Positions 649 to 63,780 of a stretch of DNA of 64,000 nucleotides are shown here, in pieces. Source of the stretch: Zygnema cylindricum (lineage: Eukaryota > Streptophyta > Zygnematophyceae > Zygnematales > Zygnemataceae); the NCBI GenBank assembly GCA_037447655.1, contig JBBHKE010000908.1, forward strand, positions 62,001 through 126,000. Direction: 5' to 3'. A program made the translations under genes and the position numbers. The notes beneath the pieces are model-generated. The model worked only from the letters and a program-made list of their open reading frames with translations, searched no databases and was not told where the DNA came from. The stretch's first letter is position 1. Every line of letters begins with the position of its first letter.

Positions 649-1684
649 TGAAGAAATTAAAGGCTAGTTTAGTATTTTCAAGGTTTTGTAAAATGCAGAA
701 AAGAAGCAGAGGCAGTCTGCCTCTAACTCCTCTTTCTAACTCCCACACTTGTCGCAGTCATTCAAAGTTGGAGAGGGAGATAAAGCCATGGCCCCCTATG
801 CTATCCAGACGGGGATAAACATTAGATTGGCAGATTTACCAAAATAGTTATTGGCGGAACCGGGATTTGAACCTGGTACCTGCCTTCCGTCACAGCCACC
901 GGTAGCTGGTAGCCTTAACCAATTAGACTAGGATCAAGGTTATACGATATAAGGTTTGATAATTACATAAATATGTACACGTAGGCTATGTCATTTAGCG
1001 GGTTATTTGGACATAGAAACAGTTTGTAATGTACAGCATACAGTAAATCCAAAACGAATACCACGCAATTTGTTTTGAAGGCGAAATAAATATCGCGCAA
1101 TTCTTTATGACGGCTACGATTGAAATTCGATTTAATCAGAAGGCCGCGAATCATGCCGAGATCGTGGAATAGTTTTTCGGCGGTTTACAGTCAACGTCAA
1201 ATCGAATGTCACGTTGCACAACCATATTGGAATACGATTCCTCCGAGGATTACAGGAACGAATCCAAAAGTGACATGTGTTGACTTGTTGGCCATGTCGT
1301 ACAATGGTCGTACAGAAAGTACACCGGCACTTGTACTTTTCTGTACAATACAGTATTATGATTGGTGCCGTACTATTGTAGATAAATTTTTAGAGAGAGA
1401 TAGGACTTAGAAAAATTTGATAGATTGGACCCTCTCTCCCAGAGAGCCTCTGTACAAAATGTCAACTTTGACCCTTCATAACTTACTGCTCAGAGGAGCA
1501 AATTCAAAGATTTTTTTTGCTAATGACTTAACGGAGTCTTGCCTTCACAGAAGTATAGGTGGTCAGAGTTTTTTGTCTGGCAAGGTAGCACTAATTCTTG
1601 CCGAAACACAAAGGGGTTAGGGTAATCCTAAAGGCTTCGTGTCAGCTGCCTACTCTGAGGACCTATGGAGGTCTCAGAGTGACA
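649..1684 (+). repeat. 5' LTR of copia element F
   Basis: The LTR starts tgaagaaatt (degraded from TGTAGAAA) and ends gagtgaca next to the primer site, 1036 bp, close to the 1041 bp of element A. It shares with A the GTAC-rich block around 1275-1350 and the LTR end phrase gaggtctcagagt. It carries an antisense tRNA-like module. Confidence 0.8.
860..932 (-). promoter_or_regulatory. Antisense tRNA-like pol III module in LTR of F
   Basis: On the minus strand TAGTCTAATTGG (919-930) fits the A-box consensus TRGYNNARYNGG at every position and GGTTCAAATCC (863-873) fits the B box GGTTCRANNCC at every position. The D-arm can form a 4-bp stem, GTCT with AGGC, around a 9-nt loop. The T-arm has a 5-bp stem with one mismatch. 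No acceptor stem pairs, so it is tRNA-like rather than a tRNA gene. It runs opposite to the retroelement. Confidence 0.7.
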
Positions 1685-1699
1685 GGTTATGGGCCCACC
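1685..1699 (+). other. Primer binding site of F (half-tRNA iMet type)
   Basis: GGTTATGGGCCCACC directly abuts the LTR end. It is complementary to roughly nucleotides 26-40 (anticodon stem-loop) of plant initiator tRNA-Met as I recall that sequence. The gag start ATG at 1689-1691 lies inside it. Confidence 0.75.
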
Positions 1700-4600
1700 A
1701 TCTAGGGCGCCCATATTAAATGGAGGTGGCTTCATATACTGGGAAATTATGATGACAGGAGCTCTATATGAGAAACGGTTTTGGGAAATAGTGAGTGGAT
1801 GGGTGAGGCGTCCATCAAGTTTTGGGATACCTCTAAAGTTTACAAGAGGCAGATTCACTAAAGATGTAGATCCATCTTCAACGGAGGAGACAAAAAAAAA
1901 GGAGGTGGTAGACAAAGGAAAGGAGAAGGAGACGATCACACCAATAGCAACCGGTTTGGCATTCATGTCACCTATTCCGAGGAACGAGGAGAATGATATC
2001 GATACTTGGGACTACAACAATATGGTGGCTAAGCACTTCATCCTCCACCATCTCACTCAAGGGCTTGCATCTGCCAATTTGCAAGTAGAGAGGGCTTCCG
2101 ATCGTTGGGTGGCTCTCACAGAGATGTACCGAAGTGGTACAATTCAGCAACAACAGTTGGCTAATCAGAAAATTAAGGAGTATGTATACAAAGGGAGGAA
2201 GATGTTGGATTTTTGCAATGAGGTTGCTACACTTTTCATGGAACTAGAGAGTGCTAGAAAAGTATTTAGTGAAAAGGAAAAGGTTAATTGTTTACTGATG
2301 AAGTTACCGGATGAGTTCAAGAACATAGTCAACCGTGTGCAAGACTTGGCGGACTCAAGGTGGATTTAGAATTCAGTGGTAGGGATGATTCTCGTTCGGG
2401 AGAATACGATTGATCCGAAGGGGAGGAAAGAGTGGGCAAGCTTTGGCAGCTGGGACCGATTGGAGGAACTATGATTCCAAGAAACGCGCTGGAAATTATC
2501 GAGGGGAGGGGCAGAAAAATCAGACCGAGGAGTTCACACCAAGGACTCCCAAGGGTTTGTGCCATTTTTGTAAGAAACTCGGACACTATATGGCTCAATG
2601 CACTAAGTTAACCGAGCTGGGTTGAAGAGGGCCAGACCGGTGGACCCTCGAGAGAAAAAAAAAAGACCCTTGAGACACAGGTACATGAGGCGGAATCCGA
2701 GGACGAGGAGGATGAACTCCTATTGGATGAGGAGTTGTAAGCGAAAAACGAGGTCGAAATTCCACGAAAGCATAAATGTGCTTTCGATGGATTGAAAGGT
2801 GAAGCAGGCTAAATTGTAGACTCAGGGTGCATCTATGATATGATGCCACCTATAAGGGAGAAAAGATTCTAGATTTAATTCACAGAATATTTGGGGGCCA
2901 GCCAGAGTGCCACCACCCGGAGGGAAGAGATTTATGATGACTATCATCGATGATTGGTCTCGGTATTCCAGGGTGTATTTTTTTGAAAATAAGTCAGAGG
3001 CTCAGGAATGTTTTAAACAGTATAAAGCATGGAGTGAAAAACTCCATGAAACCTCAATCAAGAGAGTAAGGAGTGACAATGGTTGAGAGTATAACTCTAA
3101 CCAGTTTGAGGATTTTTTGAGAGAAGATGGAGTTCAACACCAAAAGGATGTTTTTGAAAATCCTGAGCAGAATGGTGTAGCTGAAAGATTAAATAGAACA
3201 CTGATTGATAGTGCTAGGAGTATGCTGTCAGATAAGAAGATAGGAATTAAGTTTTGGGCCGAAGCAATGAACTATGCAAATTATCTCAAGAATAGAGTTC
3301 TTACTACAGCAGTAAAAAGGCCAAACACCCTATGAGAGATGGACTGGTCGAAAACTAGGTATTTCACACTTAAAGGTTTTCGATAGTCAAGTGTTCAGTT
3401 TAGACAAAGATTGGTCAAACTCGAAGTTAGACCCAAAAGGAAAACTAGGATATCTACTAGGATATGATGAATATGTAAAGGGATATAGAGTCTATGATCT
3501 CAAAAGAGAGGATATTATTCTAGTGAAGCATCTAGTGGTTATGGATGAACGAAATTCTAGAGATCAATTTAAGCATACAAAGACAGTCAGAATCAGGTTT
3601 TAGTTAGAAAATTATGATGACTTTGAGCTTCCTAACTATCCAAGATTTCAAAAAGATGATGATCTAGCAGGCACATATCTTATCGAGAAGGACCCAAATG
3701 TGAAACCCCTAGTATTAACTCCAACCGAAGCGGAAGACGTGGTGGAACTCGACTTAGAATCAAGGGATAGGGGAGAAGTAGAATGTGTTCGGAAAAATTC
3801 AAGAGAGCCATCTATTTCGGCAACCGAGTTTGAGGGAGGAAGAAGAAGCAACAAAAGGCTGCAAGAGAGGCAAGTCTACGATAAGGTAACCAAACTGTCT
3901 CACCGCGATGAACCTCAAACTTATAATGAGGTAATGACTTGTCATGAGAGAAATCGGTTGAAGACAACCATTAATGAGGAGATGGCCTCAATTATGGCGG
4001 CCGATACATGGGAATTGATGGATTATCCTATTGACAGGAAGCTAATTGGGTGTAAGTGGGTATTTAAGTTGAAACTCAACCCGGATAGCTCCATTGAGCG
4101 CTACAAGTCTCGGTTAGTGGCGAAGGGATTTACCCAGAAAGAGGGAATTGACTATGAGGAGACTTTTGCTCCGGTCGTCCGGTTTCCTTCTGTTTGAACA
4201 CTTCTCACTATGGCGGCAGCAGAAGACATAGAAGTGCATCAATTGGAAATCAAGACGGCCTTTCTACATGCAGAGTTGGAAGAGGAAATTTTTATGCGAC
4301 AGCCTAAAGGATTTGTGGAGCAAAGGGAGGAAAGCAAGGTATGCCGATTGGTCAAATCTTTCTATGCGCTGAAACAAGCGCCTCGGCAATGGAACAAGAA
4401 GCTCGATGAATTTTTTACAGGTTTGGCATATATTCAGATCACCTCAAATCACTCAATATATTTGTTTGAAGATGAGGAAGGAATTATTCTCATTGCAATT
4501 TATGTTGATGATTTGCTTGTTTTAAGTAAATCTATGGATAAAATGAATAAGTTTAAAAATGATCTAAAAAGAAGATTTTAGATGAAAGATATGGGAGAAG

Positions 4601-4798: not shown

Positions 4799-4854
4799 NN
4801 NNNNNNNNNNNNNNNNNNNNNNNNNNNNNNNNNNNNNNNNNNNNNNNNNNNNNN
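4799..4854. other. Assembly gap (56 N)
   Basis: A run of 56 N. Element F is open on its left and unrelated fossils begin on its right, so the two sides may not be truly adjacent. Confidence 0.99.
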
Positions 4855-5081
4855 TTTCGATGCTAAACCCACTTCCTCTATAAACCTCTCAATCTGTAAT
4901 AATAGCCTACACGCTCTTATAAAGGTTTGCCGTACTAAAGCTATCGTAACTAATCCTTAGGGCACAAAATATTCTCCTCCTTTGTATGATCCTAAGGTAC
5001 CGTGAAATAACCTTTTTAAAACTCTCTTCCTCAACCGCCGATGAAAAGCTGATGGTAACTCCGCCGAAAACTGTACGAATG

Positions 5082-10500: not shown

Positions 10501-10539
10501 GTCGAAATGGAAAGAAAAAGAGAGCAAAGACAAACTGAA

Positions 10540-13329: not shown

Positions 13330-13332
13330 TAA

Positions 13333-15318: not shown

Positions 15319-16359
15319 TGTAACTCTGAGACCTCCATAAGTCCTCAGAGTGGACAGCTTCCAAGAAGCCTCTAGGATAATCCTGACCCCTTTGTGTTTA
15401 AGCAAAAATAACTGCCACCCTGGCAGACAAAAACCCTGACAACCTGCACCCCTGTGAAGGCAAGACTCCCCTGAGTCAGTAGCAAAAAGAATCTCTGAAT
15501 TTGCTCCCCTGAGCAGTAAGTTATGGAGGGTCAAAGTTGACCTTTTGTACAGAAGCTCTCTGGGAGAGAGGGTCCTATCTTCTAATTTTTCTAAGTCCTA
15601 TCTCTCTCACAGACTCTATCTACTGATGTACGGAACCAATCAGAATTGAGTTCCGTACGCAAAAGTACAGCCGCCGGTGTACTTTCAGTACGGACATTGT
15701 ACGACATGGCCTAAATGTCGACACATGTCAAATCCGGATTCGGTGCCATAATCTCCGGAGATTCTACAATCCAACGGAATTTCGCCACGTGTCATCCGAT
15801 GTGGCGATGGCCACAAACCGCCGAAATCTCCCTCCGCGATCTCGGCGCTAATTCCGGCCGTCCGATTAAATTCAGATTTAATCTTAGCCGTAATAAATAC
15901 ATGCGCGGTATTTATTTCACTTCCGAAACAAATGCGCGGTATTGATTCGTAATCCGTACCGTCATCCGTACCGGTTCTATGTATCCCGTAATCCGTAACA
16001 GTTAAATGAATTTATCGTACGTATACATCTTTAAATAATTATCAAACTATATAGTATGTATCACTATAGCTAGACCTAACGGCTAAGGCTACCGGCTATT
16101 TCCTATCTGCCGGCCGGTAGGTACAGGGATCAAATCCTGTCGCCGGCGCTTAACTTTTAATTAAATAAATAAACCCTAGTATTAAATTCCCGTAAACTTC
16201 AGGATAGCCAAGGTAGCCATGGCTCTAGCTTCCTCTCCAACTTCTCAGTGACTGCAACAAGTTTGAGAGTTGGAGAGAGAAGTTAGAGATAGACTGCCTC
16301 GGCTTCTTTCTATTTCTATTTAGACCTAGAAAATACTAATAAATCCATTAGTTTCTACA
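15319..16359 (-). repeat. 3' LTR of element A
   Basis: 1041 bp. In the element's sense it starts TGTAGAAACTAATGG and ends CAGAGTTACA. It matches 20712-21752 at about 98%. It contains GTAC-rich promoter-like blocks near 15630-15710 and an antisense tRNA-like module. Confidence 0.95.
16071..16150 (+). promoter_or_regulatory. Antisense tRNA-like module in 3' LTR of A
   Basis: GGATCAAATCC (16127-16137) fits the core B box GWTCRANNC and sits in an ACAGG/CCTGT stem. TAGACCTAACGG (16071-16082) stands where the A box should be but matches only about 9 of 12 positions. It runs opposite to the element. Confidence 0.6.
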
Positions 16360-20711: not shown

Positions 20712-21752
20712 TGTAACTCTGAGACCTCCATAAGACCTCAGAGTGGACAGCTTCCAAGAAGCCTCTAGGATAATCCTGACCCCTTTGTGTTTAAGCAAAA
20801 ATAACTGCCACCCTGGCAAACAAAAACCCTGACAACCTGCACCCTTGTGAAGGCAAGACTCCCCTGAGTCAGTAGCAAAAAGAATCTCTGAATTTGCTCC
20901 CCTGAGAGTAAGTTATGGAGGGTCAAAGTTGACCTTTTGTACAGAAGCTCTCTGGGAGAGAGGGTCCTATCTTCTAATTTTTTCTAAGTCCTATCTCTCT
21001 CACAGACTCTATATACTGATGTACGGAACCAATCAGAATTGATTTCCGTACGCAAAAGTACAGCCGCCGGTGTACTTTTAGTACGGACATTGTACGACAT
21101 GGCCTAAATGTCGACACATGTCAAATCCGGATTCGGTGCCATAATCTCCGGAGATTCTACAATCCAACGGAATTTCGCCACGCGTCATCCGATGTGGCGA
21201 TGGCCACAAACCGCCGAAATCTTCCTCCGCGATCTCGGCGCTAATTCCGGCCGTCCGATTAAATTCAGATTTAATCGTAGCCGTAATAAATACATGCGCG
21301 GTATTTATTTCACTTCCGAAACAAATGCGCGGTATTGATTCGTAATCCGTACCGTCATCCGTACCGGATCTATGTATCCCGTAATCCGTAACAGTTAAAT
21401 GAATTTATCGTACGTATACATCTTTAAATAAATATCAAACTATATAGTACGTAACACTAAAGCTAGACCTAACGGCTAAGGCTACCGGCTATTTCCTATC
21501 TGCCGGCCGGTAGGTACAGGGATCAAATCCTGCCGCCGGCGCTTAACTTTTAATTAAATAAATAAACCCTAATATTAAATTCCCGTAAACTTCAGGATAG
21601 CCAAGGTAGCCATGGCTCTAGCTTCCTCTCCAACTTCTCAGTGACTGCAACAAGTTTGAGAGTTGGAGAGAGAAGTTAGAGATAGACTGCCTCGGCTTCT
21701 TTCTATTTCTATTTAGACCTAGAAAATACTAATAAATCCATTAGTTTCTACA
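20712..21752 (-). repeat. 5' LTR of element A
   Basis: 1041 bp, the partner of 15319-16359. It is bounded by the primer site on one side and TSD TAGTA on the other. The in-frame ATG at 20731 lies inside it, eight codons before the primer-site ATG. Confidence 0.95.
21464..21545 (+). promoter_or_regulatory. Antisense tRNA-like module in 5' LTR of A
   Basis: Same layout as in the 3' LTR: TAGACCTAACGG at 21464-21475 and B-box GGATCAAATCC at 21520-21530. Confidence 0.6.
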
Positions 21753-37793: not shown

Positions 37794-37801
37794 AGCGAAA
37801 C

Positions 37802-39945: not shown

Positions 39946-39979
<34 letters not shown>

Positions 39980-45491: not shown

Positions 45492-46413
45492 TGGAATTCT
45501 GTGTCCCCCATTGGACTACAAAATTTAGGAGGCCTCTAGATAGTTTTTGGCTAACCCCTCTTCAGCTAGGATCATAGATTCCCAAGTATGCCAACAAGCA
45601 ATTTGACTGCATCTAGGTGCAATCTGGACTCCCGTGAGTGCGTTGAAAAAGAAATCAGTGAAAACGCCCAACCAGGCGATTAGTTATCAAATGGCAAAGA
45701 TGCCAAAATATATACAACCTCATTGGAAGAGAGAGGCGCCTACCTCCTAAATCTCCTAAGTCTCAAACCCCTCTCACAAACCCTATCTACTGATGTATGA
45801 ACGAATGAGAGAACTGTAAAGAACAGTAAGGTACTATGGCCGTCGTACTTTATGTATGGTCTGTGTATGACTCGGCCATTGAGTAGATGCCTGCCCCCTT
45901 CAGACTTGTCCTCATGCTCTCCGGGATTCCCGCTTCCCAATATTATCTTGTCACGTGGCGCCAGGTCATGTTACTCCCAAAAACCGCCAAAGCCACCATT
46001 CAGTAATCTCGATGATGATGCCTACCGTCGGATCCAAATCGGGTTGAAATTTTGGCCGTTGTAAATCAATGTCCGGTAAATTTGTTTCGTGCGGTTTTAC
46101 GTTCGCACTATATTTTATTTTGTATCTATATTACTTATCCGTAATTTTTTTGATCGTATTAATGAACTTTAACATGTTCAAATACTTATCACACCCAATG
46201 TACTCTAACGAACTTCAACGATAGACCGGCTAAAGCTGACGGCTACGCCTCCCTCTGTCGCTGGGAGGTTCGAGTCCTGCTGGACTTAACCTTTTTGTTA
46301 GAAGTGACTTATATCACTTCATATGACCCGCCTAAGGAGCCAAGGCAACCATGGCTCCACCACCCTCTCTCTCTTTCAGTGACTACGACAACTATAGGAG
46401 ATAGAGAGGAGAG
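45492..46413 (-). repeat. 3' LTR of element E, first part
   Basis: Similar to the LTR of C in its first 60 bases (attggactaca, then ctctagatagttttt). It is split by element B at a GAGAG target site; the remaining 88 bp lie at 63786-63873. Confidence 0.75.
46222..46292 (+). promoter_or_regulatory. Antisense tRNA-like module in LTR of E
   Basis: GGTTCGAGTCC at 46267-46277 is a perfect B box (GGTTCRANNCC). TAGACCGGCTAA at 46222-46233 is at the A-box place but a poor match. Opposite to the element's sense. Confidence 0.55.
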
Positions 46414-47481
46414 TGCAAATCTGAGACCTCCATAGGTCCTCAAAATGGACAACTTGGAAGAAGCCTCTAGGATAACCCTGACCCCTTTGTGTTTCAGCAA
46501 GAATAACTGCCACCCTGGCAAACAAAAATCTAACCACCTTCACCTCTGTGAAGCCAAGACTCCCTGAGTCGATAGCAAAAAGAATCTATGAATTTGCTCC
46601 CCTGAGCAGTCATTTATGAAGGGTCAAAGTTGACCTTTTGTACAAAGCTCTTAGGGAGAGAGGGTCCTATCTACCGATTTTTTTTAAGTGTTATCTCTCT
46701 CTAAAGCTCTATCTACTGACGTACGACACCAATCATATTAATGTGCCGTACAGAAAGGTACAGCTGCGAGTGTACTTTCTGTACGGACATTGTACGACAT
46801 GGCGAGAAGGTTGACACATGTCATATCCGGATTCGTTTTCGTAATTCTTGGAGATGCCGAAATCCAATGTCGTGGTGCCACGTGTCATCCGATGTGGCGG
46901 TGACCACAAACTACCAAAATCCTCTTCCTTGATCTCGACATTCTTTCCGGCCGTCCGATCGAATGCCGATTTCAATCGTAGCCGTCATAAATATTTGCGC
47001 AGTATTTGTTTCGCTATCGAAACAAATGCGCGATACTTGTTTCTTCTCCGTACTTGTAATCCCTACTTTTCATAACCGACTCTATGTATCCTGTATATAG
47101 TTGCCGTTAAATGAATTAGCCTACATGGTAACGTTTATATATTTATTAAACCCTATATCACTAACCACTAGTCCTAGACTTAACGGATGAGTCTACCGGA
47201 TACCGGCAGCTTTAACTAATGGTAGGTACCAGGATCAAATGCTGTAACCGACAACTTTCCTATTAGTAAATCAACTAATTTACTACCTGTAAATCAACTA
47301 ATCAATTACGTGTAAATCTCTGGATAGCATAGGCAACCATGGCTCTAGCATCCTCTCCAACTTCTCAGTGACTGCAACAAATGTGGGATTTGGAGAGAGA
47401 AGTTAGAGGCAGACTGCCTCGACTTCTTTTCTGCATTTCATTTTAGACCTAGAAAATACTAAAGAACCATCAATTTCTACA
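46414..47481 (-). repeat. 3' LTR of element B
   Basis: 1068 bp, plus-strand tgcaaatctgagacc to catcaatttctaca, next to the polypurine tract (plus-strand ctccctttattttctag). Confidence 0.9.
47175..47250 (+). promoter_or_regulatory. Antisense tRNA-like module in 3' LTR of B
   Basis: TAGACTTAACGG at 47175-47186 lies in a stem AGACT/AGTCT like a D-arm. GGATCAAATGC at 47232-47242 is a B box with one change at the end. Confidence 0.5.
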
Positions 47482-47489
47482 CTCCCTTT

Positions 47490-50400: not shown

Positions 50401-50581
50401 CTTAACTTATCAAGATTCACATGCCCAAGCCTCTTGCGCCACATCATTATATCATGAACACCAGCATAATAAAGTTTCTTCTTTTCATTGCTTAAAATCA
50501 GCCTAAACATCTCTTAGCTACCTTTTTCAGCAGTGAAATATACTTCCAACTCAAAACTAGCAATAAAGACTTCTTTCCAAG
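47490..50581 (-). pseudogene. integrase, RT and RNase H of element B, degenerate
   Basis: Colinear with element A: RNase H at about 47500-48130 (KAKHMDIRLSYVREKVENK), RT at about 48130-49190 with the YIDD variant of YVDD at about 48616-48630 and GCKWVFKLKLNLD at about 49045-49085, integrase at about 49700-50290 with RSDNGAEYTSNQF at about 50020-50065. The integrase N-terminal HHCC region runs to 50581, where element C interrupts. Many stops and frameshifts, including a 141-bp tandem duplication in RNase H. Confidence 0.85.
47644..47925. repeat. 141-bp tandem duplication inside RNase H of B
   Basis: The stretch from agctgagtctaatg to caaagactt is present twice, with starts at 47644 and 47785. 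141 is a multiple of three, so the frame was kept. The two units differ at several positions, so the duplication is old. Element A has one unit. Confidence 0.8.
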
Positions 50582-51288
50582 TGCAATTCTGTGTCCTCCA
50601 TTGGACTACAGAATACAAGTACCCTCTAGATAGTTTTTAACTAGCCCACTTTAAGCCACAGCCACTGCTGCCCAAGAATGCAAACAGACAGTTTGACAGC
50701 ACCCTTGTGCAGCTTGGACTCCCCTGAATCCGTAGCAAAAAGAATCACGGAAAATGGCCAACGAGCTGATAAGTTATGAGGCAGTAAAAATGGCAATTTG
50801 TACAAACTCTCAAAGGGAGAGGTGACCGCCTACCCAAAAATTTCTAAGTCCAAATTCCCTCTAATAACTTCTATCTACCGAAGTACGGACCAATCATATT
50901 ACCGTACCGTACCAAAAAGTACTACTGCCGGTGTACCTTTTGTACGACCTATGTACGACAAGGCTATTAAGCGGACGCGTGTCTGCTTTTCACTCGTCCG
51001 TACATTCTTTGGAATTCTCATGACTGAATGTCATCTCTCCACGTGGCTCTAGGTCATGCCACGTCACTAAACGCCAAAGTGACCACTCCGGGATTTCGAC
51101 GATGATGTGCGCCGTTGGATTTGCAGCGAGACACAATCTTAACCGTAATAAAAACTTGCGCGATATTTGTTTCGCTGGCGAAACAAAATGCGTGGTATCC
51201 GTTTTGAAATAGTGTCGTACTTCGTACTTTCATAAAACTGTATCTATGCACGCCGTATACAGTTTAGTTAAATGGATTTGTTCCTCCC

Positions 51289-51414
<126 letters not shown>

Positions 51415-51444
51415 ATCACATACTATAGCATTTAGCATTGGTCC

Positions 51445-51515
51445 TAGTCTAATAGGATAAAGCTGACCTCTCTCGTCCAACTTGACGAACTGCAGGTACC
51501 GGGATCAAATCCCGG
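51445..51515 (+). promoter_or_regulatory. Antisense tRNA-like module in 3' LTR of C (best T-arm)
   Basis: TAGTCTAATAGG (51445-51456) matches the A-box consensus at all positions. GGATCAAATCC (51502-51512) matches the B-box core. CCGGG and CCCGG form a perfect 5-bp T-stem around the 7-nt loop ATCAAAT, exactly tRNA geometry. The acceptor ends do not pair. Confidence 0.7.
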
Positions 51516-51728
51516 GTCTGTCAGATATATTTTTAGTAGCCTACTAAAAATTAACTGCCTGTTGAACTAAGGAAACCATGGATTAACCACCCTCTCTATC
51601 CTTCAGTGACTGCAACAAGTATGGGGGCTAAAGAGAGGAGGTGGAGGCAGGCTGTCCGTCTTTTTCTTTTTCTTTTATACTAACATATTAAACCTAGAAA
51701 ATACTCTAGAAATCTATTTATTTCAACA

Positions 51729-54700
51729 CTCCCCTTATTTTCTAGTCTAATTTTAATTTTTCTTTCAACCCGCAATTTTCCTGACAATATTTTAAATTAG
51801 GAGACGGCACAGGTTTGGTCATCATGTCAGCCACCATTTCTTGATCAGGTCTATACCAAGATTTAAAATTTTATTTTCAACTTTTTCTCTCACGAAGCTT
51901 AATCTTATGTCCATATGTTTTGCTTTAAAAGGGTGTATTGGATTGGCTGGAATTGCAATTGCAGCTTGATTATCGCAAAAGACTTCATGCACTCCCTCCT
52001 TCATATATCGCAGTTCTTGCAACAATGACTTCACCCACATTAATTCTTTTACAGCAGAACAAGAGTCCATATACTCAGCCTCCATAGTAGACTGAGCAAC
52101 CACCTTTTGTTGCTTAGTGCTCCAACAACAAGCACCTTCCTCCACATACAAAACATGTCCAGAAGTTCATCTTCTCATAGGTGCATCCCAATAACTGGCA
52201 TCACTCCAAGTGGTGATATCAGTGTTCTCCCCTCCCAAATGCAACCATAATTCTCTGGACTCTCTTGGTTGCCTCCCAATCTCTCTTTCTAGGATCCTTA
52301 AGACTCCTACTGAGGACTCTTACTGCTGCCGCTATGTCCAGCCTTGTACAGTTCATAAAGTAGATCAAACTTCCTACGACATGTCTGCAAGGAGTAGACT
52401 TCATAAACTCTCTCTCCTCTAGACTCATTGGATCATCTAAGATCATCACTCCTCCTTCTACACTCCCAACACTTACCTTATTCAAGTCCATGGGAGTGGT
52501 ACAACTGTTAGTTTTCTCCATTTGAAATTTCTCAAGAATATTTCCTATTGCTTCTTTCTGAGTGAGTCTTATGATCCTCTTCCCTCTGTCTCTTTCCATT
52601 TGAATTCCCAAAATATATCTTGCATCTCCTAAATTTTTCATGTCAAATATGCTCCAAAGATCAGATCCTTTTTTAAATTATTGATATTTCCCAAAGACTT
52701 ACTTAGCACCAGCAGATCATCCACATTAATTGCAATAAAGATTACACCATTCTCATCTTCAAACATATAGATAGAACGGTCAGAGCTGATCCTGATATAT
52801 CCTAGACCAGTAAGAAACTCATCTAGTTTCTTATTCCATTGTCGGGGAGCCTTCTTAAGTCCATATAAGGACTTTATTAGCATGCAGACTTTACTTTTTT
52901 CCCTATTCTCCACAAACGCCTCCGGCTGCCTCATGAAGATTTCTTCCTCTAACTCACCATTGACGAATGCGGTCTTAATGTCCAACTGATGTATTTCCAT
53001 GTTTTTTTGCTGCTGCTAGGCTGAGGAGAATCCTTATTGATGGGAAACGAACAACTGGGGCAAATGTCTCATCATAGTCAATCCCCTCTTTTTAAGAGAA
53101 CCCCTGTGCCACCGAACGAGTCTTATATCTTTCGATGGTATCATCAGGGTTTAGTTTTAGTTTAAAGACCCATTTACACCCAATAGGTTTTTCTGTCTGG
53201 AGGGCAATCTGCTAGTTCCCAGGTGTTTGCTTCCACGATGGAAGCCATCTAATCATTTATGGCCCTGATCCATCTGTCCTTCTCTGGACTGTTTACTGCC
53301 TCTAAGTATGACTATGGCTCATCAGGATGTGATAGCTTAGTTACCTTATGAGCGATCTGTTTCTCTTGTAGCCTTTTGCTGCTCATTATCCCCCCTTCAA
53401 ATTCTGAAGCTCGAATAGATGGAAGTCTTGGGTTTCTCCTTAGTGTCTCATTAGCTCCCCTATCCATGGAAGATGGTTCCGGTTCCTCCTCTTCTGTCTC
53501 CTCGAGGTCCATAGGAAGATGTGGGGTATCTGGTTGCTCTCTTGTATCTTGGATCTCTCTTGAATCTGCAATCACAGTCTCACTCATGTCTTTTTCGGGA
53601 AAAACAGAGTTCTCCTCACTCCAAGACTCAAACCTGATTCTTATCCTTTTAGTATATTTGAAGGGGTCAATTGACTTTCCTTCATCCATGACAACTACGT
53701 GTTTGACCAGAATGATATCTTGTTTTGCTAAGTCATAGACTTTGTATCCCTTAACATCCTCATCATATCCCACAAAATATCCAGGTTTTCCCTTAGCATT
53801 AAGTTTCCAGTTTTTCTAATCCGTATCTAGACAATAAACTTGGCTACCAAACACTTTAAGGTGAGAGATATCTGGTTTCCTTCCAACCCATCTTTCATAA
53901 GGTGTCATACCTTTGACTGCTGATGTAAGGACTCTATTTTTAACGTAGTTGGCATTGTTCATGGCTTCTACCCAAAATCTCTTTCCTATTTTCTTGTCAG
54001 CCAACATACTACATACACTATCTCCTAGTGTTCGGTTTAACTTCTCTGCTACCCTATTTTGTTCCGGATTATGTGGTACGATTTTCTGGTGTTGAACTCC
54101 CTCATCTCTTAAGTATTCCTCAAACTGGTTAGAGGTATACTCTCCCCCATTATCACTCCTTATTCTCTTAATGGGGGTTCCATACAACTTCTCACTCTAG
54201 GCTTTGTATTCTTTGAAGTAAGTTGGTGTTTCTAACTTTGTTTTCAGAAAATAAACTCTAGAGTACCTAGACCAGTCATCAGTGATTGTCAGCATATATC
54301 ATTTCCCTCCAACTGAGGGTACCCTTGCTAGTCCCCAGATATATGTGTGGATTAAGTCTAGTACCTTTTCACCCCTATATGTGGCGGCTTTAGGAAAAGG
54401 AAGTCGTGAGATTTTCCTTGGGCACAACCACTACAATCATCCACTATTTCATTATCAATGAATTGAATCCCTTATACTACACCAAGCTTCTTCATCTCCC
54501 TTAACCTATCAAAATGCACATGCCCCAACCGCTTATGCCAAATCATCAATTTTGGGACACCAACATAGTATGCATTCTTCTTTTCATTACTCAGGTTAAG
54601 CCTAAACATTCCTTGGCTACCCTTATCTGCAGTGAAGTAAACTTCATCCCCATACTTGACTGAAAAACTCCCTTTCTAGTGAAAGTATCAAACTCTTTGT

Positions 54701-55563
54701 CATGTAATACAGATGTAGAAACAAGATTTTTACTCAATTGAGGAATATAAAACACATCTTAAAAGTGAGAATAAAAGTCTTACCCCCCACTAAAACTTTC
54801 AGGTCAACTGATCCCACTAGATCTGTAGTAATAACTCTCCCATCCCCATACTCTATTTCTACAGTAGGGATTTTCCTTAGCTTAGTGAAGAGGTCCTTGT
54901 CACAACACATATGCATGGATGCAACTGAGTCGATGATCCATCTTTCCTGTGGAGCTTCCCGAATTGCTCTAGGGCACACTTTTGTTTCCGAGGAGGGTCC
55001 TTCTCCTCCAGACTCTCGTCAAGAAGAAGCTCCCCATCCACCTCAGAGGACTCGTCCTCGGTGTCTCCTATAACCTTTGTGACCAAAAGTGCCTTTTTCT
55101 TCCCTCCGGAAGAACCCCCTCGTTAGTTCTCTTGTAACCTCAGCTCCGCCAGCTTGGCACAATCCGCAATAAAGTGCCCTAGGTTTTTGCAAAAGTGACA
55201 TAGGCCCTTTGGGGGCCTCAATCCTCCAGGTTAGACTCTTTCTCATTTGTATGGTTTTTTCGGTTCGGGTCTCCACCTGTCCCCTCCGGCGGCAAGAGCT
55301 TGAACGCTCTTTCCACCTCTCTTGATCTCAATGGTATTTTCCTGCACAAGTATCATCCGGACCACTATATTCCACTTCCATGAACTATCAGTCATTTCTT
55401 GTACTCGGTACACTATGTTCTCATTCTCGTCTGGTAACTTCATGATGAGAGTGTTAACTTTCATTTTCATTGTACTTGTCTAACTGGCACTTTCCATCTC
55501 CATATACAAACAAGAAAGATCATTGCAATAATCTAACATCTTTCCCTTTTTGTAAGTGAAACT
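51729..55563 (-). pseudogene. gag (part) and pol of element C, degenerate
   Basis: Colinear with A: RNase H at about 51822-52200 (TMEAEYMDSCSAVKELMW), RT at about 52200-53260 ([17 protein letters not shown] at about 52935-52990; the fourth box is NVDD instead of YVDD at about 52715-52730), integrase at about 53830-54440 (RSDNGGEYTSNQFEEYL, PEQNRVAEKLNRT), protease region at about 54840-54960 (DSVASMHM instead of DSGASMHM), and gag with zinc-knuckle remains at about 55100-55563. Stops and frameshifts throughout. The active-site changes suggest it was dead before or soon after insertion. Confidence 0.85.
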
Positions 55564-56745
55564 TGTTGATATTTGTGTATTTTCTAGGTCTGTAAAAGGA
55601 TAGAAAAAGGCAGAGGCAGTCTACCTCTAACTCCCCTCTCCAAGTCCACACACTTGTTGTAGTCACTGAAGGCTGGATAGGGAGCTAGAGCCATCACTCC
55701 TTAAGCACTCTAGAGAAGACAAGGGTTAAATTAATAAGACTTACAAAAACGTACTTGACAGACCAAGGAATTGATCCTGGTACCTACCATCCGTCAATCC
55801 GCCCTTAGCCGGTGACTTTATCCATTTAGACTAGAGCTAGTAATACGACGTATGGGGTTTGATAATTATTTAAATAGTAACACGTAGACTGGTTCATTTA
55901 ACTGGAAATATATACGTATTGTATAGATACAGTTACGGATAGTACGGAGTACGGATTTATTTATTGAAACAGATATCGCACATTTGGTTCGACCGCGAAA
56001 TAAATACCGCGCGTCTATTTTCAACGGCTAGAAATGTAGCCGGATTTGATCGGACGGCCACGATAGGCGCCGCGATCGCGCGATATGTACTTTTGGCGAT
56101 TTGCGGTCATCGCCACATAAGATGACACATGGCACTTCAACATTGGATTGCGGCGACATTGGAGATTACGGGAACAAATAGATATATGACATGTGTTGAC
56201 ATTTTAGCCATATCGTACGATTGTCGTACAGAAAGTACACCGACACCTGTACTTATCTGTACGGTACAGTGAAGTGATTGGTGCGGTACGTCAGTAGATA
56301 GGGTCTTAGAGTGAGAATAGGACTTAGAATATTTTGAGTAGGTAGTCGCCTCTCCCAGAGAGCATCTTGTATAAATGGCTAACTTTGGGCAGCCACAACT
56401 ATCAATTTACTTGACCATTTTCAGTGATTCTTTTTGATGCGGACTCAGGGGAGTCCAGGCTACACATGGGTTTAGTTGGTCAGAGTTTTTGTTTGCCAGG
56501 GTGGCGGTATTTCTAAGGGAAAGTCAAAGTGGGTGATTGTGTCTAAATCTCATATTCTAACTTTGCATTCTGTGGTGGAACTGAGCACACAGAAAGTGTT
56601 ATTTCACAGGGTTGAATCTATATTGGGGTTCTGACTGTCAAAGGGTCAGTTATTTGGGTTTATATCTAATTGGAGTCGGCACTATGTAGATTAGCTTCTT
56701 TTGGATCTGCATACTTTGAGGGCCAATGGAGGTCTCAGAATTTTA
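55564..56745 (+). repeat. 5' LTR of element D
   Basis: Starts TGTTGATATTTGTG and ends cagaatttta (last CA mutated to TA) against the primer site. Confidence 0.9.
55767..55833 (-). promoter_or_regulatory. Antisense tRNA-like module in 5' LTR of D
   Basis: On the minus strand TAGTCTAAATGG (55822-55833) matches the A box at 11 of 12 and GGATCAATTCC (55767-55777) matches the B-box core. Confidence 0.6.
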
Positions 56746-56760
56746 GGTTATGGGCCCACC
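56746..56760 (+). other. Primer binding site of D overlapping gag AUG
   Basis: GGTTATGGGCCCACC, identical to the sites of A and F. ATG at 56750-56752. Confidence 0.8.
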
Positions 56761-58423
56761 ATCTAGGGTGTCTATGTTTGATGGAACACGCTTCACTTAT
56801 TAGGCGTTTACAATGGAGGGATTGCTTTTCGAGAAGCACTTATGGGGAATTGTTGCAGGACAAGTGAGATGTCCGCCACCTGGCTTTGGAGGAGCTTACT
56901 AAAGAGAATCATATGAGGCTGCCAATAATATCAACCGAAGTTTAGATGCAACGGAAGGTGAAGGGAAAAACCTTTTTGTGGATGGGGAAATAAGGGAGAA
57001 GGAAAAAGGGACATCTATGGTGAGGAGAGCTAGGCTCTCAGCTATGGTACCACTTGTAGGGATTAAAACTGAAGAAAATGATAGGAAAATATGGGAATAC
57101 AAAAACACTTTAGCAAAACATCTCATACTTAGATATGTGTCTAAGTCCGTAGCTATCACTCTTTTAAGTCTAACAAAGTCTTCAGAGATATGGGAAACAC
57201 TAAGTCAGATTTATAAGAGTGAGATTATGCAGAGGCAGCAATTAGTAAAACGAAAATAGAGGCCTATGTTTATAAAGGCGGTAACATGATAGAGTTTTGC
57301 AATGATATTGCTGCGTTATATATTGAGCTTACTAGTGCGGGATATGTAGAATCTGAGGAGAGGAAGATTAGTAATTACTTATGAAACTCCCAGATGAGTA
57401 CAAAAATATCATTTGTCGTATGCAGGCAATTTATGGTTCCTCATGGATTTGGAGCTTTACCATGGGGATAATTCTTGTGAGGGAAGGCACTTTGGAGCTT
57501 CGTAGAGGAAGTGACAGGGTGAATGCATTTACAGCTGGTGGTGATTGGCAGAAGCATGATGAGACGAACGACGGTGATTGGCGGAAGCGTGATGAGAGGA
57601 AGAAAGACAAAGGTAAACCTTATCGGAACTTTGGTGGAAAAAGAGGGAGAGGAAAAGACACGGGAGCTTTGAAAAAATGGGTTTGCTTCTTTTGTAGGGA
57701 ACCGGGTCATTATATGGAGGAATGCCCTTGTTTGGAAAAACTTAGAAGTTGGAATGTGGATGAGGAGGACGAAGAGGAAGAGGAGAAAGATGATGAAGAA
57801 ATCTTGGAGCTTATTCACATCGGTAGAATGGGGAAGAGAGAAAAGTACACAAAAATTGCACGAAGGCAACAGTGTGCTTTTGGAGGTATAAGGGAAGTAA
57901 AGAGAGAGGAGGTACTTGAGGATGTCGAGGAGTGTAAAGTGTATGACTTAGAAATGAGAAAGTCAGATCTAGGATCCATAAGTGAAAACGGGAAAGATAA
58001 AATTAATAAGGATAATTTTATAGGTATTTTAAAATTAGAAAACTGGTCGAAAGGGAGACCTCAACGGATTCCGAGGAAAAGGGAGAAGTGAAACTAGAAG
58101 GAGTTTTTAAAGATAAGGGAGAAGATGAATATTTAACGAAAGGTTTAGGGGAGGAGAAATACTTATTGGGAATAAATTTAGAAAGAGAGAGTGGAAAGAA
58201 ATCCATGGGAGAGACTGAGGAAAGTTCAATTTTTGCGGGTAATGGGTTTGACATCGCTAAAGGGAGTGATGGTATTTATGAAGGTGTGCCTCTAAAAAGG
58301 TTAGCATCTGGGTGTATGTTGCAGATTGGAGATGGGGCTGGCTGTTTGGATCGCAAGAGGGAAATCGGTTTGTGTGTGGATGAAAAAGAGATGAGGTGGA
58401 TAAATCTTTGCTCGGATTTATGA
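56750..58423 (+). pseudogene. gag and pol remnant of element D
   Basis: Gag begins MGPPSRVSMFDG, with an early TAG (56801-56803) where relatives have Trp. Open stretches at 56978-57259 and 57381-58091 give the rest of gag, including MKLPDEYKNIICRMQ and the zinc knuckle CFFCREPGHYMEEC (57690-57731), followed by a very acidic run. Protease, integrase and most of RT are absent. 58088-58423 keeps only EEKYLLGINLERES (RT end) fused to LKRLASGCMLQIGDGAGC and EMRWINLCSDL (RNase H pieces). The frame is nearly intact through gag, as if gag alone had stayed under selection. Confidence 0.8.
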
Positions 58424-58600
58424 AAAGTGGGATGTTAAATAAAATGTGTGATGCAATTATTATTTCAATTCATTTAATGCACTCTGTTAAATGCTTAAGT
58501 TTTATGAAAGGAAAAGGAAAAAGGAAAAAGAAAAAGAAAAAGGGGAGGGGGTGTTTGTTTACTTTTTTGTGGAAGTTGAAAGGAAAAAAGACTAAAAAAT

Positions 58601-58608
58601 AAGGGGAG
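58601..58608 (+). other. Polypurine tract of element D
   Basis: aaggggag directly before the 3' LTR, the same core as in element A. Confidence 0.75.
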
Positions 58609-59789
58609 TGTTGATATTTGTGTATTTTCTAGGTCTGTAAAAGGATAGAAAAAGGCAGAGGCAGTCTGCCTCTAACTCCCCTCTCCAAGCCACCACACTT
58701 GTTGTAGTTATTGAAGGCTGGATAGGGAGCTAGAGCCATCACTGCCTAATATCTCTAGAGAAGACAGGGGGTAAATTAATAAGAGTTACCAAAAAGTACT
58801 TGACGGACCCAGGAATTGATCCTGGTACCTACCATCCGTCAATCTGCCCTTAGCCGGTGACTTTATCCATTTAGACTAAGCTAGTATTACGACGTATGGG
58901 GTTTGATAACTATTTAAATAGTTACAAGTAGACTAGTTCATTTAACTGGAAATATATACGTATTGCATAGATACAGTTATGGATAGTACGGAGTACGGAT
59001 TTATTTATTGAAACAGATATCGCGCATTTAGTTCGACCGCGAAACAAATACCGCGCGTCTATTTTCAACGGCTAGAAATGTAGCCGGATTTGATCGGATG
59101 ACCACGATAGGCCACGCGATCGCCCGATATGTACTTTTGGCGGTTTGCGGTCATCGCCGTATAGGATGACATATGGCACGTCAACATTGGATTGCGGCGA
59201 CATTGGAGATTACGGGAACAAATAGATATATGACATGTGTTGACATTGTAGCCATATCGTACGATTGTCGTACAGAAAGTACACCGACACCTGTACTTAT
59301 CTGTACGGTACAGTGAAGTGATTGGTGCGGTACGTCAAGAGATAGGGTCTTAGAGTGAGAATAGGACTTAGAATATTTTGAGTAGGTAGTCGCCTCTCCC
59401 AGAGAGCATCTTATATAAATGGCTAACTTTGGGCATCCATAACTATCAATTTACTTGACCATTTTCAGTGATTCTTTTTGCTGCCAACTTAGGGGAGTCC
59501 ACGCTACACACGGGTTTAGTTGGTCAGAGTTTTTCTTTGCCAGGGTGGCGGTATTTCTAAGGGAAAGTCAAAGTGGGTGTATGTGTCCAAATCTCATATT
59601 CTATCTTTGCATTATGTGGTGGAACTGAGCACACAGAAAGTGTTATTTCACAGGGTTGAATCTATATTGGGGTTCTGACTGTCAAGGGGTCAGTCATTCG
59701 GGTTTATATCAACTTGGAGTCGGCACTATCTACATTAGCTTCTTTTGGATTTGCATACTCTAAGGGCCAATGGAGGTCTCAGAGTTTCA
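58609..59789 (+). repeat. 3' LTR of element D
   Basis: Starts TGTTGATATTTGTG and ends cagagtttca. Partner of 55564-56745. Confidence 0.9.
58812..58878 (-). promoter_or_regulatory. Antisense tRNA-like module in 3' LTR of D
   Basis: Minus-strand A box TAGTCTAAATGG (58867-58878) and B box GGATCAATTCC (58812-58822), unchanged from the 5' LTR although neighbouring bases differ. Confidence 0.6.
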
Positions 59790-60276
59790 ACACTAGCTTT
59801 TGCTCAACCAATTGGAGCTCCTGAATAATACCAGCTCTATAAATGTCCGCCAAACTCTCCCACAACTCCTCGGCCTTATAAATATTAAGGTGAGAGGTGG
59901 CCAAGGCTTGAGTGAGATGCCTTAGAATGAAGTTTTTGGCACCCATTTTTACATCTTCCCACATTCGAGCATCGTTCTCCACGGTCTTCACGGCTGCCGC
60001 TCTTGGTGCCATGGCAATAGGGGTGAGGGGTGTCTCCTTCCCTTTCCCTTTTTCAGACACACTGCTGTCCTCATCATCTGCCTTCTCCGCGGAATCAGTC
60101 GCTGCTGCAGAAAACCTTACTCCTCCAAATCCTGGCGGAGTTCTTGAAGGTGGACGTTTCACTTGTCCACTGACGATACCCCAGTATCGTTTTTCACACA
60201 AAGCTCCCATCATCATGGCTTCCCAATAGATGAACCCAGATCCATTGAAAGAGGGCACTCTAGAGGGTGGGCCCAT
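59790..60276 (-). pseudogene. gag N-terminal part of element C
   Basis: An open frame from MGPPSRVPSFNGSG to ELQLVEQKLV, about 160 codons, cut by element D. The rest of gag continues at 55563 downwards. Sequence and order match gag of A (KNFILRHLTQALA against KHFILRHLTQGLA). Confidence 0.88.
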
Positions 60277-60280
60277 AACG
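60266..60280 (-). other. Primer binding site of C overlapping gag AUG
   Basis: CGTTATGGGCCCACC, 14 of 15 complementary to the initiator tRNA anticodon arm. The gag ATG is at 60276-60274. Confidence 0.75.
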
Positions 60281-61320
60281 TGCAATTTTGTGTCCTCTAT
60301 TAGACTACAAAATACAAAAAGCCTCTAGATAGTTTTTAACTTGCCCACTTTAAGCCACAGCCACAATTGCCCAAGAATGCAAACTGGTAATTTGACTACA
60401 CCGCTGTGCAGGTTGGACTCCTTTGAGTCCGTAGCAAAAAGAATCACTGAAAAAGGCCAACCAACTGATAAGTTATGAGGTAGTTAAAATGGCAATTTGT
60501 ACAAACTCTCAAAGGGAGAGGTGACTACCTACCAAAATTTTCTAAGTCCAGATTCCCTCTAATAACTTCTATCTACTGAAGTATGGACCAATCAGATTAC
60601 TGTACCGTACCAAAAAGTACTACTGCCGGTGTACCTTCTGTACAGCATATGTACAACAAGGCTATTAAGCAGACGTGAGTCTACTTTTCACTCGTCCGTA
60701 CATTCTTTGAAATTCTCATGATCGAATGTCATCTCTCCATGTGGCTCCTGGTTATGCCACGTCATTAAACGTGAAAGTGACCACTCCGGGATTTCGGCGA
60801 TGATGTGCGCCGTTGGATTTGCAGCGAGAGGCAATCTTAGCCGTAATAAATACTTGCGCGATATTTGTTTCGCTGTCGAAACAAAATGCCTGGTATCCGT
60901 TTTGAAATAGTGCCGTACTTCGTACTTTCATAAAACTGTATCTATGCACGCCATATACAGTTTTAGTTAAATGGATTTGTTCCTCCCTAAATATATATGT
61001 ATATCTATCACATACTATAGCATTTAGCATTGGTCCAAGTCTAATAGGATAAAGCTGACCTCTATCAGCAAACTTGACAAACTGCAGGTACCGGGATCAA
61101 ATGTCGGGTCTGTCAGATATATTTTTAGTAGCCTACTAAAAATTAACTGCCTGTTGAACTAAGGCAACCATGGAACAACCACCCTCTGTATCCTTCAGTG
61201 ACTACGAGAAGTATGGGGGCTAGAGAGAGGAGGTGGAGGTAGGATGTCCGTTTTTTTCTTTTTCTTTTATATTAACATTTTAAACCTAGAAAATACTCTA
61301 GAAATCTATTAATTTCAACA
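60281..61320 (-). repeat. 5' LTR of element C
   Basis: 1040 bp from tgcaattttgtgtcc to aatttcaaca, adjoining B sequence on the right. Confidence 0.88.
61035..61105 (+). promoter_or_regulatory. Antisense tRNA-like module in 5' LTR of C, decayed
   Basis: The A box reads AAGTCTAATAGG and the B box GGATCAAATGT (61094-61104); each has changes relative to the 3' LTR copy. Confidence 0.5.
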
Positions 61321-62705
61321 TCTATTATCAAAACCCTAATCATCTAATACAGACGTAGAGATTAGGTTTTTGTTCAGCTCCGGAATAAACAATACATCTG
61401 AGAATGTAACTATGGATGTCTTTCTTTCCACTAACACTTTTAGATCTACCGATCCTACAAGAGTAGTAGTGACTATCCTCCCATTCCCGTATTCTATTTC
61501 TACGGTGGGAATCTTTCTTATCTTAGTGAACAGGTGTTTATCCTTGCACATGTTTATGGAGGCACCTAAATCTACAATCCAGCGTGCTTCACCTTTCAAT
61601 CCACGGAAAGCACATTTCTGCTTTCGTGGAATTTCTACTCCGTTTTTCGCTTCCAACTCCTCATCCAACAAGAGCTCATCGTCCTTGTCTTAGGATTCCA
61701 CCTCATGTACCTGTTTCACAAGGGCCCTTTTCTTTCCTCTCGGGGTTCCACCGGTCTGCCCCTCCTTTAACCGAAGCTCGTTTAGTTTTGTGCACTCCGC
61801 CATATAGTGCCCTGGTTTCTTACAGAAATGACATAAACCCTTGGGAGCCCTTGGTCCGAACTCGTCGGTCTGATTTTTTTGCACCCCCTTTCCGTAGTTT
61901 CCGACCGGTTTTCGGGAATCCTTCTACCTCCAATCGGTCCTAGCTGCCAAGGCTTGCCCACTCTTTCCTCCTCTTCGGATCTCAATCGTATTCTCCCAAA
62001 CGAGAATCATCTCTACAACTGAGTTCCATATCCACCTTGAGTCAAGCAAGTCCTACACACGGTTGACTATGTTCTCGAACTCATCATGTAACTTCATCAG
62101 TAAACAGTTAACCTTTTCCTTTTCACTAAATTATTTTCTAGCACTCTCTGGCTCTATGAAAAGTGTAGCAAGATCATTGCAAAAATCCAACATCTTCCCC
62201 TCTTTGTATACATACTCCTTATTTTTTGATCAGCCAACTATTGTTGGTGAATCGTACCACTTCGGTAATATCTCTATGAGAGCCATCCAAAGATCGGATG
62301 CCTTTTCTACATGCAAATGAGGATATACAAGCCCTTAAGTGAGATGGCGGAGGATGAAGTGCTTTGCCGCCATATTGTTAAAGTCCCAGGTATCACTATC
62401 ATTATCCTCGTTCCTCATAATAGGAGACATGAATGCCGAACCAGTTGCTATTGGTGAGGCCGTCTCCTTCTCCTTTCCTTTGTCCACCACCTCCCCTTCA
62501 TTTGTCTCCTCCGTTGAAGATGGATCTGCTTTCCTGGTGAATCTGCTTCCTCCAAACCCTGGAGGGATTCCAAGACTTGATGGAGGCCCCACTCGTCCAC
62601 TCACTATCCCCCAAAACCTTTCTCGCATAAATCTCTTGTCATCATACTTTCCCAGTATATGAGGCCATTTCCATTAAAGATGGGTACCTTAAAGGGTGGG
62701 CCCAT
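61321..62705 (-). pseudogene. gag and protease of element B, degenerate
   Basis: Colinear with A: protease region IVDLGASINMCKDKHLF (active-site DSG changed to DLG) at about 61540-61590, zinc knuckle CHFCKKPGHYMAEC at about 61790-61835, gag ending at the primer-site ATG 62705-62703. Several stops and frameshifts. It continues at 50581 beyond element C. Confidence 0.85.
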
Positions 62706-62709
62706 AACA
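62695..62709 (-). other. Primer binding site of B overlapping gag AUG
   Basis: TGTTATGGGCCCACC, 14 of 15 complementary to the initiator tRNA anticodon arm. An upstream ATG in the LTR is also in frame, as in A. Confidence 0.75.
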
Positions 62710-63780
62710 TGCAACTCTGAGACCTCCATAGGTCCTAAGAATGGACAGCTTAGAAGAAACCTTTAGGATAACCCTGACCCCTTTGTGTTTCAGCAAAATT
62801 AACTGCCACCTTGGGAGACAAAAAATCTAACCACCTTCACCCCTGTAAAGGCAAGACTCCCCTAAGTCGATAGCAAAAAGAATCTATGAATTTGCTCCCC
62901 TAATCAGTCAGTTATGGAGGGTCAAATTTGACCTTTTGTACAGAATCTCTCTAGGAGAGAGGGTCTTATCTACCAATTTTTTCTAAGTGTTATCTCTCTC
63001 TAAAACTCTATCTACTGACGTACAACACCAACATATTACTGTGCCGTACAGAAAGGTACAACTGTCAGTGTACTTTCTGTACGGACATTGTACGACATGG
63101 CCAGAAAGTCGACACATGTCATATCTGGATTCGTTTCCGTAATCCCTGGAGATGCCAAAATCCAATGTCGTGGTGCCACGTGTCATCCGATGTGGCGGTG
63201 ACCACAAACTGCCGAAATCCTCTTCCGCGATCTCGACATTCTTTCCGGCCGTCCGATCGAATGCAAATTTCAATCGTAGCCATCATAAATATTTGCGCAG
63301 TATTTGTTTCGCTATCGAAAAAAATGCGCGGTACTTGTTTCTTCTCCGTACTCGTAATCCCTACTTTTCATAATTGACTCTAGGTATCCTGTATATAGTT
63401 GCCGTTAAATGAATTAGCCTACATGGTAACGTTTATATATTTATTAAACCCTATATCAGTAACCACTAGTCCTAGACTTAACGGATGAGTCTACCGACTA
63501 CCGGTAGCTTTAACTAATCGTAGGTACCAGGATCAAATCCTATAACCGACAACTTTCCTTTTAGTAAATCAACTAATTTAATACTCGTAAATCAACTAAT
63601 CTATTTCTCGTAAATCTCTGGATAGCATAGGCAACCATGGCTCTAGCATCCTCTCCAACTTCTCAGTGACTGCAACAAGTGTGAGAGTTGGAGAGAGAAG
63701 TTAGAGGCAGATTGCCTTGGCCTCAGTTCTGCATTTCATTTTAGACCTAGAAAATACTAAAAGAACCATCAATTTCTACA
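62710..63780 (-). repeat. 5' LTR of element B
   Basis: 1071 bp from tgcaactctgagacc to catcaatttctaca, followed by the GAGAG duplication. Confidence 0.9.
63475..63545 (+). promoter_or_regulatory. Antisense tRNA-like module in 5' LTR of B
   Basis: TAGACTTAACGG near 63473-63484 within an AGACT/AGTCT stem, and B-box core GGATCAAATCC at 63530-63540. Confidence 0.55.

Follow-up and report, generated by a model that had tools for sequence, protein, structure and literature searches.

Why do the long terminal repeats (LTRs) of a group of copia retrotransposons in Zygnema cylindricum carry, on the strand opposite to gag-pol, a short stretch resembling the promoter of a tRNA gene? The window analysed here is a 64,000-nt stretch of DNA (C680:62001-126000) from a genome of 352.8 Mb in 2689 contigs, and six related copia elements, A to F, were mapped in it by self-comparison and reading. 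Ten LTRs were analysed, two each from A, C, D and E and one each from F and B; a 5 or 3 after the element letter denotes the 5' or 3' LTR (eg C3, E5). The 3' LTR of F was not found in the window by these means. The sequence-only reading of this DNA had described the stretch as an RNA polymerase III (Pol III) module with the two internal boxes of a tRNA gene. That it is shared, old and of tRNA type, lies antisense in U3 and has parts of a Pol III layout was upheld; it is not a tRNA. We tentatively favour the reading that it is an old tRNA-derived promoter patch, now consisting of a B box and a T-run, with, as the working model, a TFIIIC docking site divergent from the RNA polymerase II (Pol II) promoter.

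The module comprises a B box, GWTCRANNC, and a T-run just downstream; the A/E type adds flanking GGTACC. A, C, D, E and F also have a weaker A box, placed 56-57 bp upstream of the B box. As had been proposed, the boxes lie inside the LTR on the strand opposite to gag-pol in all ten cases, the orientation being taken from the primer-binding site (PBS) and polypurine tract (PPT) in A, C, D and E, from the PBS in F and from homology in B. The module is antisense in all ten because the LTRs are homologous throughout (pairwise identity 0.54-0.78 among six representatives), and it is best read as a single ancestral feature inherited with them, not as six captures. In the sense direction it lies, by reading, in U3 and upstream of a TATA-like tract; this AT-rich tract adjoins the module (antisense TTTAAATAATTATCAAAC in A, with counterparts in the others). 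On reading, the A boxes of F and C3 were at the coordinates proposed, as were two perfect B boxes, one in F and one that belongs to the LTR of B and not, as had been thought, to E (Table 1). The exact T-arm of C3 (CCGGG-ATCAAAT-CCCGG, a 5-bp stem with a 7-nt loop) was also confirmed.

PBS and PPT are at the expected places in A, C, D and E, and likewise the PBS in F. Element A is about 6.4 kb long with gag-pol frames, 1041-bp LTRs that are 98.5% identical, a 5-bp target-site duplication (TSD), PBS and PPT. The PBS core GTTATGGGCCCACC, common to A, C, D, E and F, we take to be complementary to the anticodon arm of tRNA-iMet. A copia reverse transcriptase search of wider genome-contig and viral-contig collections found no relatives of the elements. 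Among the 120 best of 7851 copia matches (41-56% identity), those that carry a name come mostly from plants, and two bear a bacterial label.

A search of ten related LTRs for short degenerate words might turn them up by chance, an explanation already disfavoured and, we think, very improbable. The best pair of A and B boxes in each LTR, on both strands, was compared with 200 dinucleotide shuffles. In favour of a promoter, two of the ten LTRs, F and C3, beat all 200 and three more beat at least 194 (D5, 5/200 shuffles as good; D3 and B, 6/200 each). The other five were individually at background, as would be expected by chance (A5 51/200, C5 55, E5 62, A3 72, E3 185). The best pair on the antisense strand falls on the module in 8/10 LTRs, the exceptions being C5 and E3; that of B uses a different A-like word at 46227-46238. 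Six pairs of at least 28 bits occur in the whole window, five of them on modules. Relaxed ARAGORN (-ps80) called five candidates across the ten LTRs and shuffles would give 4.5, which again suits chance, but four of the five, from three lineages, were on the module and on its antisense strand. When introns were allowed the matches were scattered. Newly fetched LTRs also argue against chance, since the words recur in them with place and strand unchanged.

These LTRs came from a census of 63 U3 segments, 53 of them new and all from the same genome: 10 from the window, 23 E-type, 20 D and 10 from a 200-kb sample that was not random (C680 1-60000 and 119000-128797; C1979 1-130000). The genome-wide copy sets cover E-type and D-type LTRs. 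The sample gave 17 LTR matches, of which three lie in L035, which overlaps the window, and four (L029, two in L030, L044) were dropped as diverged or partial with the B core absent. The B core GWTCRANNC is present in 55/63 U3s. A T4 run follows it within 34 nt in 54/63, compared with a fraction of 0.196 of random 34-nt windows, and T4 occurs inside the unit in only 4/63. Both F-type U3s have the B core and one of them the T-run. Most A/E and D modules have GGATC, and F, B and the B-type copies have GGTTC.

Conservation was examined firstly among five lineages and then in 26 A/E-type LTRs (24 genome copies, E5 and A5). The E-type copies were fetched from 28 of 41 rows, the best matches to E; of 9805 candidates, 40 had been scored. 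The comparison excludes L001 (the window itself), L002, L006 and L009 (truncated), and the census in addition L004, in which the module is deleted. It had been supposed that the module was preserved in an otherwise diverging LTR. This was wrong: among the five lineages it is as conserved as the rest (identity 0.656 inside, 0.674 outside), and in the A/E-type LTRs it is among the least conserved parts (0.726 against 0.851), 947/963 windows being as conserved or more. On the scale of the whole A/E-type LTR neither box is outstanding (A 442/1037 and B 335/1038 windows as high). The absence of excess conservation that was to count against the proposal is therefore seen for the module as a whole, whereas the B-box stretch stands out. 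Among the five lineages the 21-column T-arm/B-box stretch is equalled by 7/1017 windows (46/1022 without C). U3 is fast-evolving overall in the A/E-type LTRs (identity 0.764), and within it the 18 columns GGTACCAGGATCAAATCC have an identity of 0.888, reached in 9/5000 column draws and 5/202 U3 windows. The B box alone gives 0.881 (95/5000 draws), the A box 0.865 (150/5000) and the T-run stretch 0.846 (285/5000); the 38 columns between the boxes give 0.674 and the former 3' acceptor 0.585. The B box and left T-arm thus form a conserved island inside a fast-evolving U3, and conserved boxes about a diverged spacer look promoter-like rather than like an RNA fold.

The same figures bear on a different explanation, which we rate as somewhat unlikely: a tRNA or SINE (short interspersed element) fragment captured once and decaying with the LTR, the conservation of the B box being partly shared descent and its present role none. 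The low overall conservation of the module would be expected of such a relic, as would the lack of a strict A box in most U3s outside D, a D-stem that is not maintained, the deletion in L004 and the loss of the B core from 8/63 U3s (E3, C5, L022, L010, L008, L011, L012 and L043_A5_1637). A B stretch that stands out within a fast-evolving U3, and the persistence of B core and T-run in most sampled U3s, are less easily accommodated.

The tRNA models that had been suggested as a check gave no support. ARAGORN found no tRNA in the whole window, Rfam nothing in the window at gathering score, with RF00005 absent at E up to 10, and Rfam found no tRNA in the B-type module of L033. RNA folding was examined in the ten-LTR alignment and in 45 aligned modules, which leave out L010, L043_A5_1637 and 16 of the 20 D copies; the structures tested were picked after viewing D and F and are to that extent favoured. 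The T-arm is enclosed by a 7-bp outer stem, which is not a cloverleaf stem and which covaries: with the T-stem it was matched in 0/500 shuffles of the ten-LTR alignment, where the cloverleaf stems covary less (21/500), and alone in 0/300 shuffles of the 45 modules. Its non-Watson-Crick cells lean to the sense strand (55 A-C against 20 G-U in the 45 modules), which rules it out as a stem of an antisense tRNA. For the T-stem the bias is to the antisense strand (20 G-U, 8 A-C) and covariation is unclear (30/300). Shuffles reached the paired cells of the D-stem in 53/300 and of the T-stem in 38/300 cases, and D-stem covariation was absent, 290/300 being as good. In the LTR alignment 10 of 62,553 seven-bp helices reach this level of pairing and covariation, a count that takes in the outer stem itself and registers overlapping it, so the hairpin does not stand out; RNAalifold on the ten-LTR module alignment predicted no pairs.

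Two structural candidates were accordingly set aside. The 4-bp D-arm proposed for F was read as such, and the D-stem is complete (4/4) in F and E, but a cloverleaf is not maintained in the 45 modules. The 7-bp 'acceptor' stem covaries, yet with mismatches biased to the sense strand and with comparable helices in other parts of the LTR; as a mascRNA it scored 13.2 bits in F (E 3.3) and 13.8 bits in L033 (E 1.9), neither being significant. With tRNA models not passed and cloverleaf stems not maintained, the module falls short of a functional tRNA gene, and given these fold tests a tRNA-like RNA is not claimed. The suggestion of an RNase P/Z processing site is unlikely on the same results, ie the D-stem shuffles and the poor fit of the tRNA models.

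The conserved stretch might instead be a Pol II regulatory site or a U3 hairpin in which the B-box letters are incidental and the tRNA likeness secondary. Its place upstream of the sense TATA-like tract, by reading, would agree with this, as would an outer stem that covaries with mismatches favouring the sense strand. We nevertheless hold it to be decidedly unlikely, since the hairpin has its equals among the helices of the LTR, the T-run and the rarity of T4 inside the unit are in keeping with Pol III, and in B-type modules GGTTCGAGTCC is retained and about 33-34 nt match a host tRNA gene.

That gene is a tRNA-Ser (L032:4881-4962, minus strand) called by ARAGORN at default settings. Likeness was tested for 12 of the 45 aligned modules with mononucleotide shuffles. 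On the antisense strand none of 300 shuffles was as good as B, L033_C5, L045_B or L045_C5; 3-9/300 were for F5, E5, A5, L005 and L020, 24/300 for L043_F5, 50/300 for D3 and 136/300 for C3. Most of the likeness is in the T-arm. Likeness to the tRNA of Helenus, a miniature LTR element, was matched in 0/300 shuffles for L033_C5, L045_B and L045_C5, in 1-8 for seven others, in 58/300 for C3 and in 293/300 for L043_F5.

A number of results weigh against the reading of a tRNA-derived promoter patch. The strict A core is found in 24/63 U3s, ie in 21/22 of D, 1/2 of F, 1/7 of B/C and 1/32 of A/E, the single A/E case being L010, where the script misplaced the module. Element A has a degenerate A box and nearly identical LTRs, so that its recent mobility did not require a strict A box. 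Among the five lineages the A box is unremarkable (equalled by 293/1026 windows) and conservation of the 12 T-run columns is low (0.500; 944/1026). In the young D family (22 LTRs; genome copies from 20 of 41 rows) the A box has an identity of 0.985 (equalled by 36/417 windows), and that of the B stretch, 0.933 (310/410), does not exceed the 0.944 of U3, so that D adds little. Modules in the census were placed by the best match to four observed B-box words, which favours finding the core, and shared descent accounts for part of each count. When the T-arm is removed the tRNA-Ser likeness is significant in 1/12 modules (L045_B; L033_C5 42/500 and L045_C5 46/500 shuffles), and the Helenus likeness vanishes (0/12), for which reason descent of the module from Helenus was rejected.

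On the promoter-patch reading, the ancestor of the copia clade would have acquired a tRNA-derived sequence antisense in U3, and the descendant LTR families would carry its remains as promoter-type DNA and not as a tRNA. A putative TFIIIC docking site could keep U3 open or tune Pol II initiation, and a putative antisense Pol III RNA would be about 100 nt long and confined to U3. Because the B box is the main TFIIIC contact, a kept B box with a drifting A box would fit docking of TFIIIC better than efficient Pol III transcription. From the position of the module in U3, upstream of the TATA-like tract, genomic RNA should hold it only at the 3' end; any antisense RNA from the module would then be complementary to U3, ie to the 3' end of the genomic RNA and not to its 5' end as earlier supposed. 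A stronger version, which we consider unlikely, is a large autonomous copia clade with a working antisense Pol III promoter that shares the AT tract with the Pol II promoter. Each such element might be transcribed by Pol II into genomic RNA and by Pol III into a short RNA complementary to its U3, and so regulate itself, or might use TFIIIC as a built-in boundary. An antisense tRNA-type promoter kept across several full copia families would make Pol III factors regulators or boundaries of a Pol II retrotransposon.

The nearest known systems are Helenus and Cassandra. LTR sequences resembling a tRNA are already known from Helenus (Kojima 2024, PMC10886601), a terminal-repeat retrotransposon in miniature (TRIM) that is coding-free and 311-1263 bp long. 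For its tRNA-like promoter a role in making the RNA of the element itself is proposed, and for its origin a SINE insertion into an LTR; the boxes (in most, A TRGCY/YGG and B GGTTC) are better kept than the tRNA structure, fungal and plant members have 5-bp TSDs, and most fungal members have a PBS to an anticodon loop, commonest that of tRNA-iMet (PMC10886601). The copia LTRs may be similar in their tRNA-type signal, mostly T-arm and with no full tRNA found, and element A is similar in its 5-bp TSD, PBS and PPT. They differ in being LTRs of about 1 kb in gag-pol elements with an antisense module, a strict A core in a minority of U3s and a B box that is mostly GGATC in A/E and D. The module is thus outside Helenus on length, coding content, box sequence and orientation. 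Cassandra, the validated TRIMp3 with 5S rRNA in its LTR, likewise has a small-RNA promoter in an LTR, but it is 5S-derived and non-autonomous and drives its own element RNA (PMC10886601). Promoters of tRNA origin in LTRs have so far been described, in these sources, for miniature elements thought to make their own RNA. An antisense MIR in the first intron of Polr3e also places a Pol III unit on the strand opposite to a Pol II unit and offers a working model for interference, but it lies in a host gene intron and not in an LTR (PMC5358760). Osser, Bryco and part of Gymco-II copia are reported to use half-tRNA-Met primers, a likeness to the PBS here, and the available text mentions no tRNA-like LTR for them (PMC6317226). 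An antisense or full-length-element parallel was not found among the open-licence papers listed, judged from titles and abstract openings.

A Helenus-type TRIM is present in the same genome, so the two kinds of LTR can be compared in one organism. It lies at L031:510-1022 (C680:20510-21022), with LTRs at 510-736 (227 bp) and 794-1022 (229 bp), TSD ACATT on both sides, PBS TGGTATAAGAGCC and a PPT-like GAGGGGGGG; each of its LTRs holds a tRNA-like sequence in sense orientation (RF00005, 43.1 and 46.8 bits). A decayed relative of its LTR is found at 525-648 of the window (80.7% over 114 bp; tRNA-like part 559-630), and is immediately followed by the F copia LTR, whose start is about 18 nt beyond the tRNA-like part. 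Recognisable tRNA-bearing LTRs therefore exist in this genome; descent of the copia module from one does not follow.

Table 1. LTRs and module features in the window (T4, T5: runs of four or five T; strand of an LTR is that of gag-pol)
Feature	Position	Strand	Remarks
F 5' LTR	649..1684	+	module on -; start set by reading, 642 used in alignments
F T4 run	841..844	-	past T-arm
F B box	863..873	-	GGTTCAAATCC, perfect
F A box	919..930	-	TAGTCTAATTGG
A 3' LTR	15319..16359	-	5-bp TSD TAGTA
A 3' LTR A box	16071..16082	+	TAGACCTAACGG, degenerate
A 3' LTR B box	16127..16137	+	GGATCAAATCC; T4 16155-16158
A 5' LTR	20712..21752	-	A-like 21464-21475, B box 21520-21530, both on +
B LTR	45494..46413	-	interrupted by E, resumes 63781; strict A box absent at module; by reading
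B B box	46267..46277	+	GGTTCGAGTCC, perfect; T5 46292-46296
E 3' LTR	46414..47481	-	A-like 47175-47186, mutated B box GGATCAAATGC 47232-47242, both on +
C 3' LTR	50582..51728	-	
C 3' LTR A box	51445..51456	+	TAGTCTAATAGG
C 3' LTR B box	51502..51512	+	GGATCAAATCC, in exact T-arm; T5 51530-51534
D 5' LTR	55564..56743	+	A box 55822-55833, B box 55767-55777, T5 55745-55749, all on -
D 3' LTR	58609..59789	+	A box 58867-58878, B box 58812-58822, T5 58791-58795, all on -
D 3' LTR hairpin	58802..58840	-	7-bp outer stem around T-arm; covaries; not a cloverleaf stem
C 5' LTR	60280..61320	-	decayed A box 61037-61048, B box 61094-61104, on +; T5 61122-61126
E 5' LTR	62709..63780	-	A-like 63473-63484, B box 63530-63540, T4 63559-63562, on +

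By reading, 45494-63873 of the window is a four-deep nest, D in C in E in B, with GAGAG flanking E on both sides. D (55564-59789) is a short relative with a 1.9-kb interior and a Gag-like frame with a CCHC knuckle at 57375-58091. The 41 genome rows for D comprise the query itself, 39 at 93-95% identity and one at 81%; pairing rows are 3.0-4.2 kb apart. A hairpin CTCTGAG..CTCAGAG is found at the U5 end beside the PBS (eg 20712-20745), its pairing kept in C as TTCTGTG..TACAGAA. The C 3' LTR, and not the C 5' LTR, has a long TA microsatellite at 51296-51412, adjoining the TATA-like tract, and E contains a 138-bp tandem duplication at 47644-47922. Elsewhere in the window a repeat of 430-460 bp whose ends are inverted (eg ATAGTTCAAAAGTAGG, CTACTTTTGAACTATG), like a miniature inverted-repeat transposable element, occurs four times, at 24326-24783, 34207-34662, 34803-35230 (without the left end) and 37800-38254, and there is a near-perfect C-run/G-run palindrome at 39948-40029.

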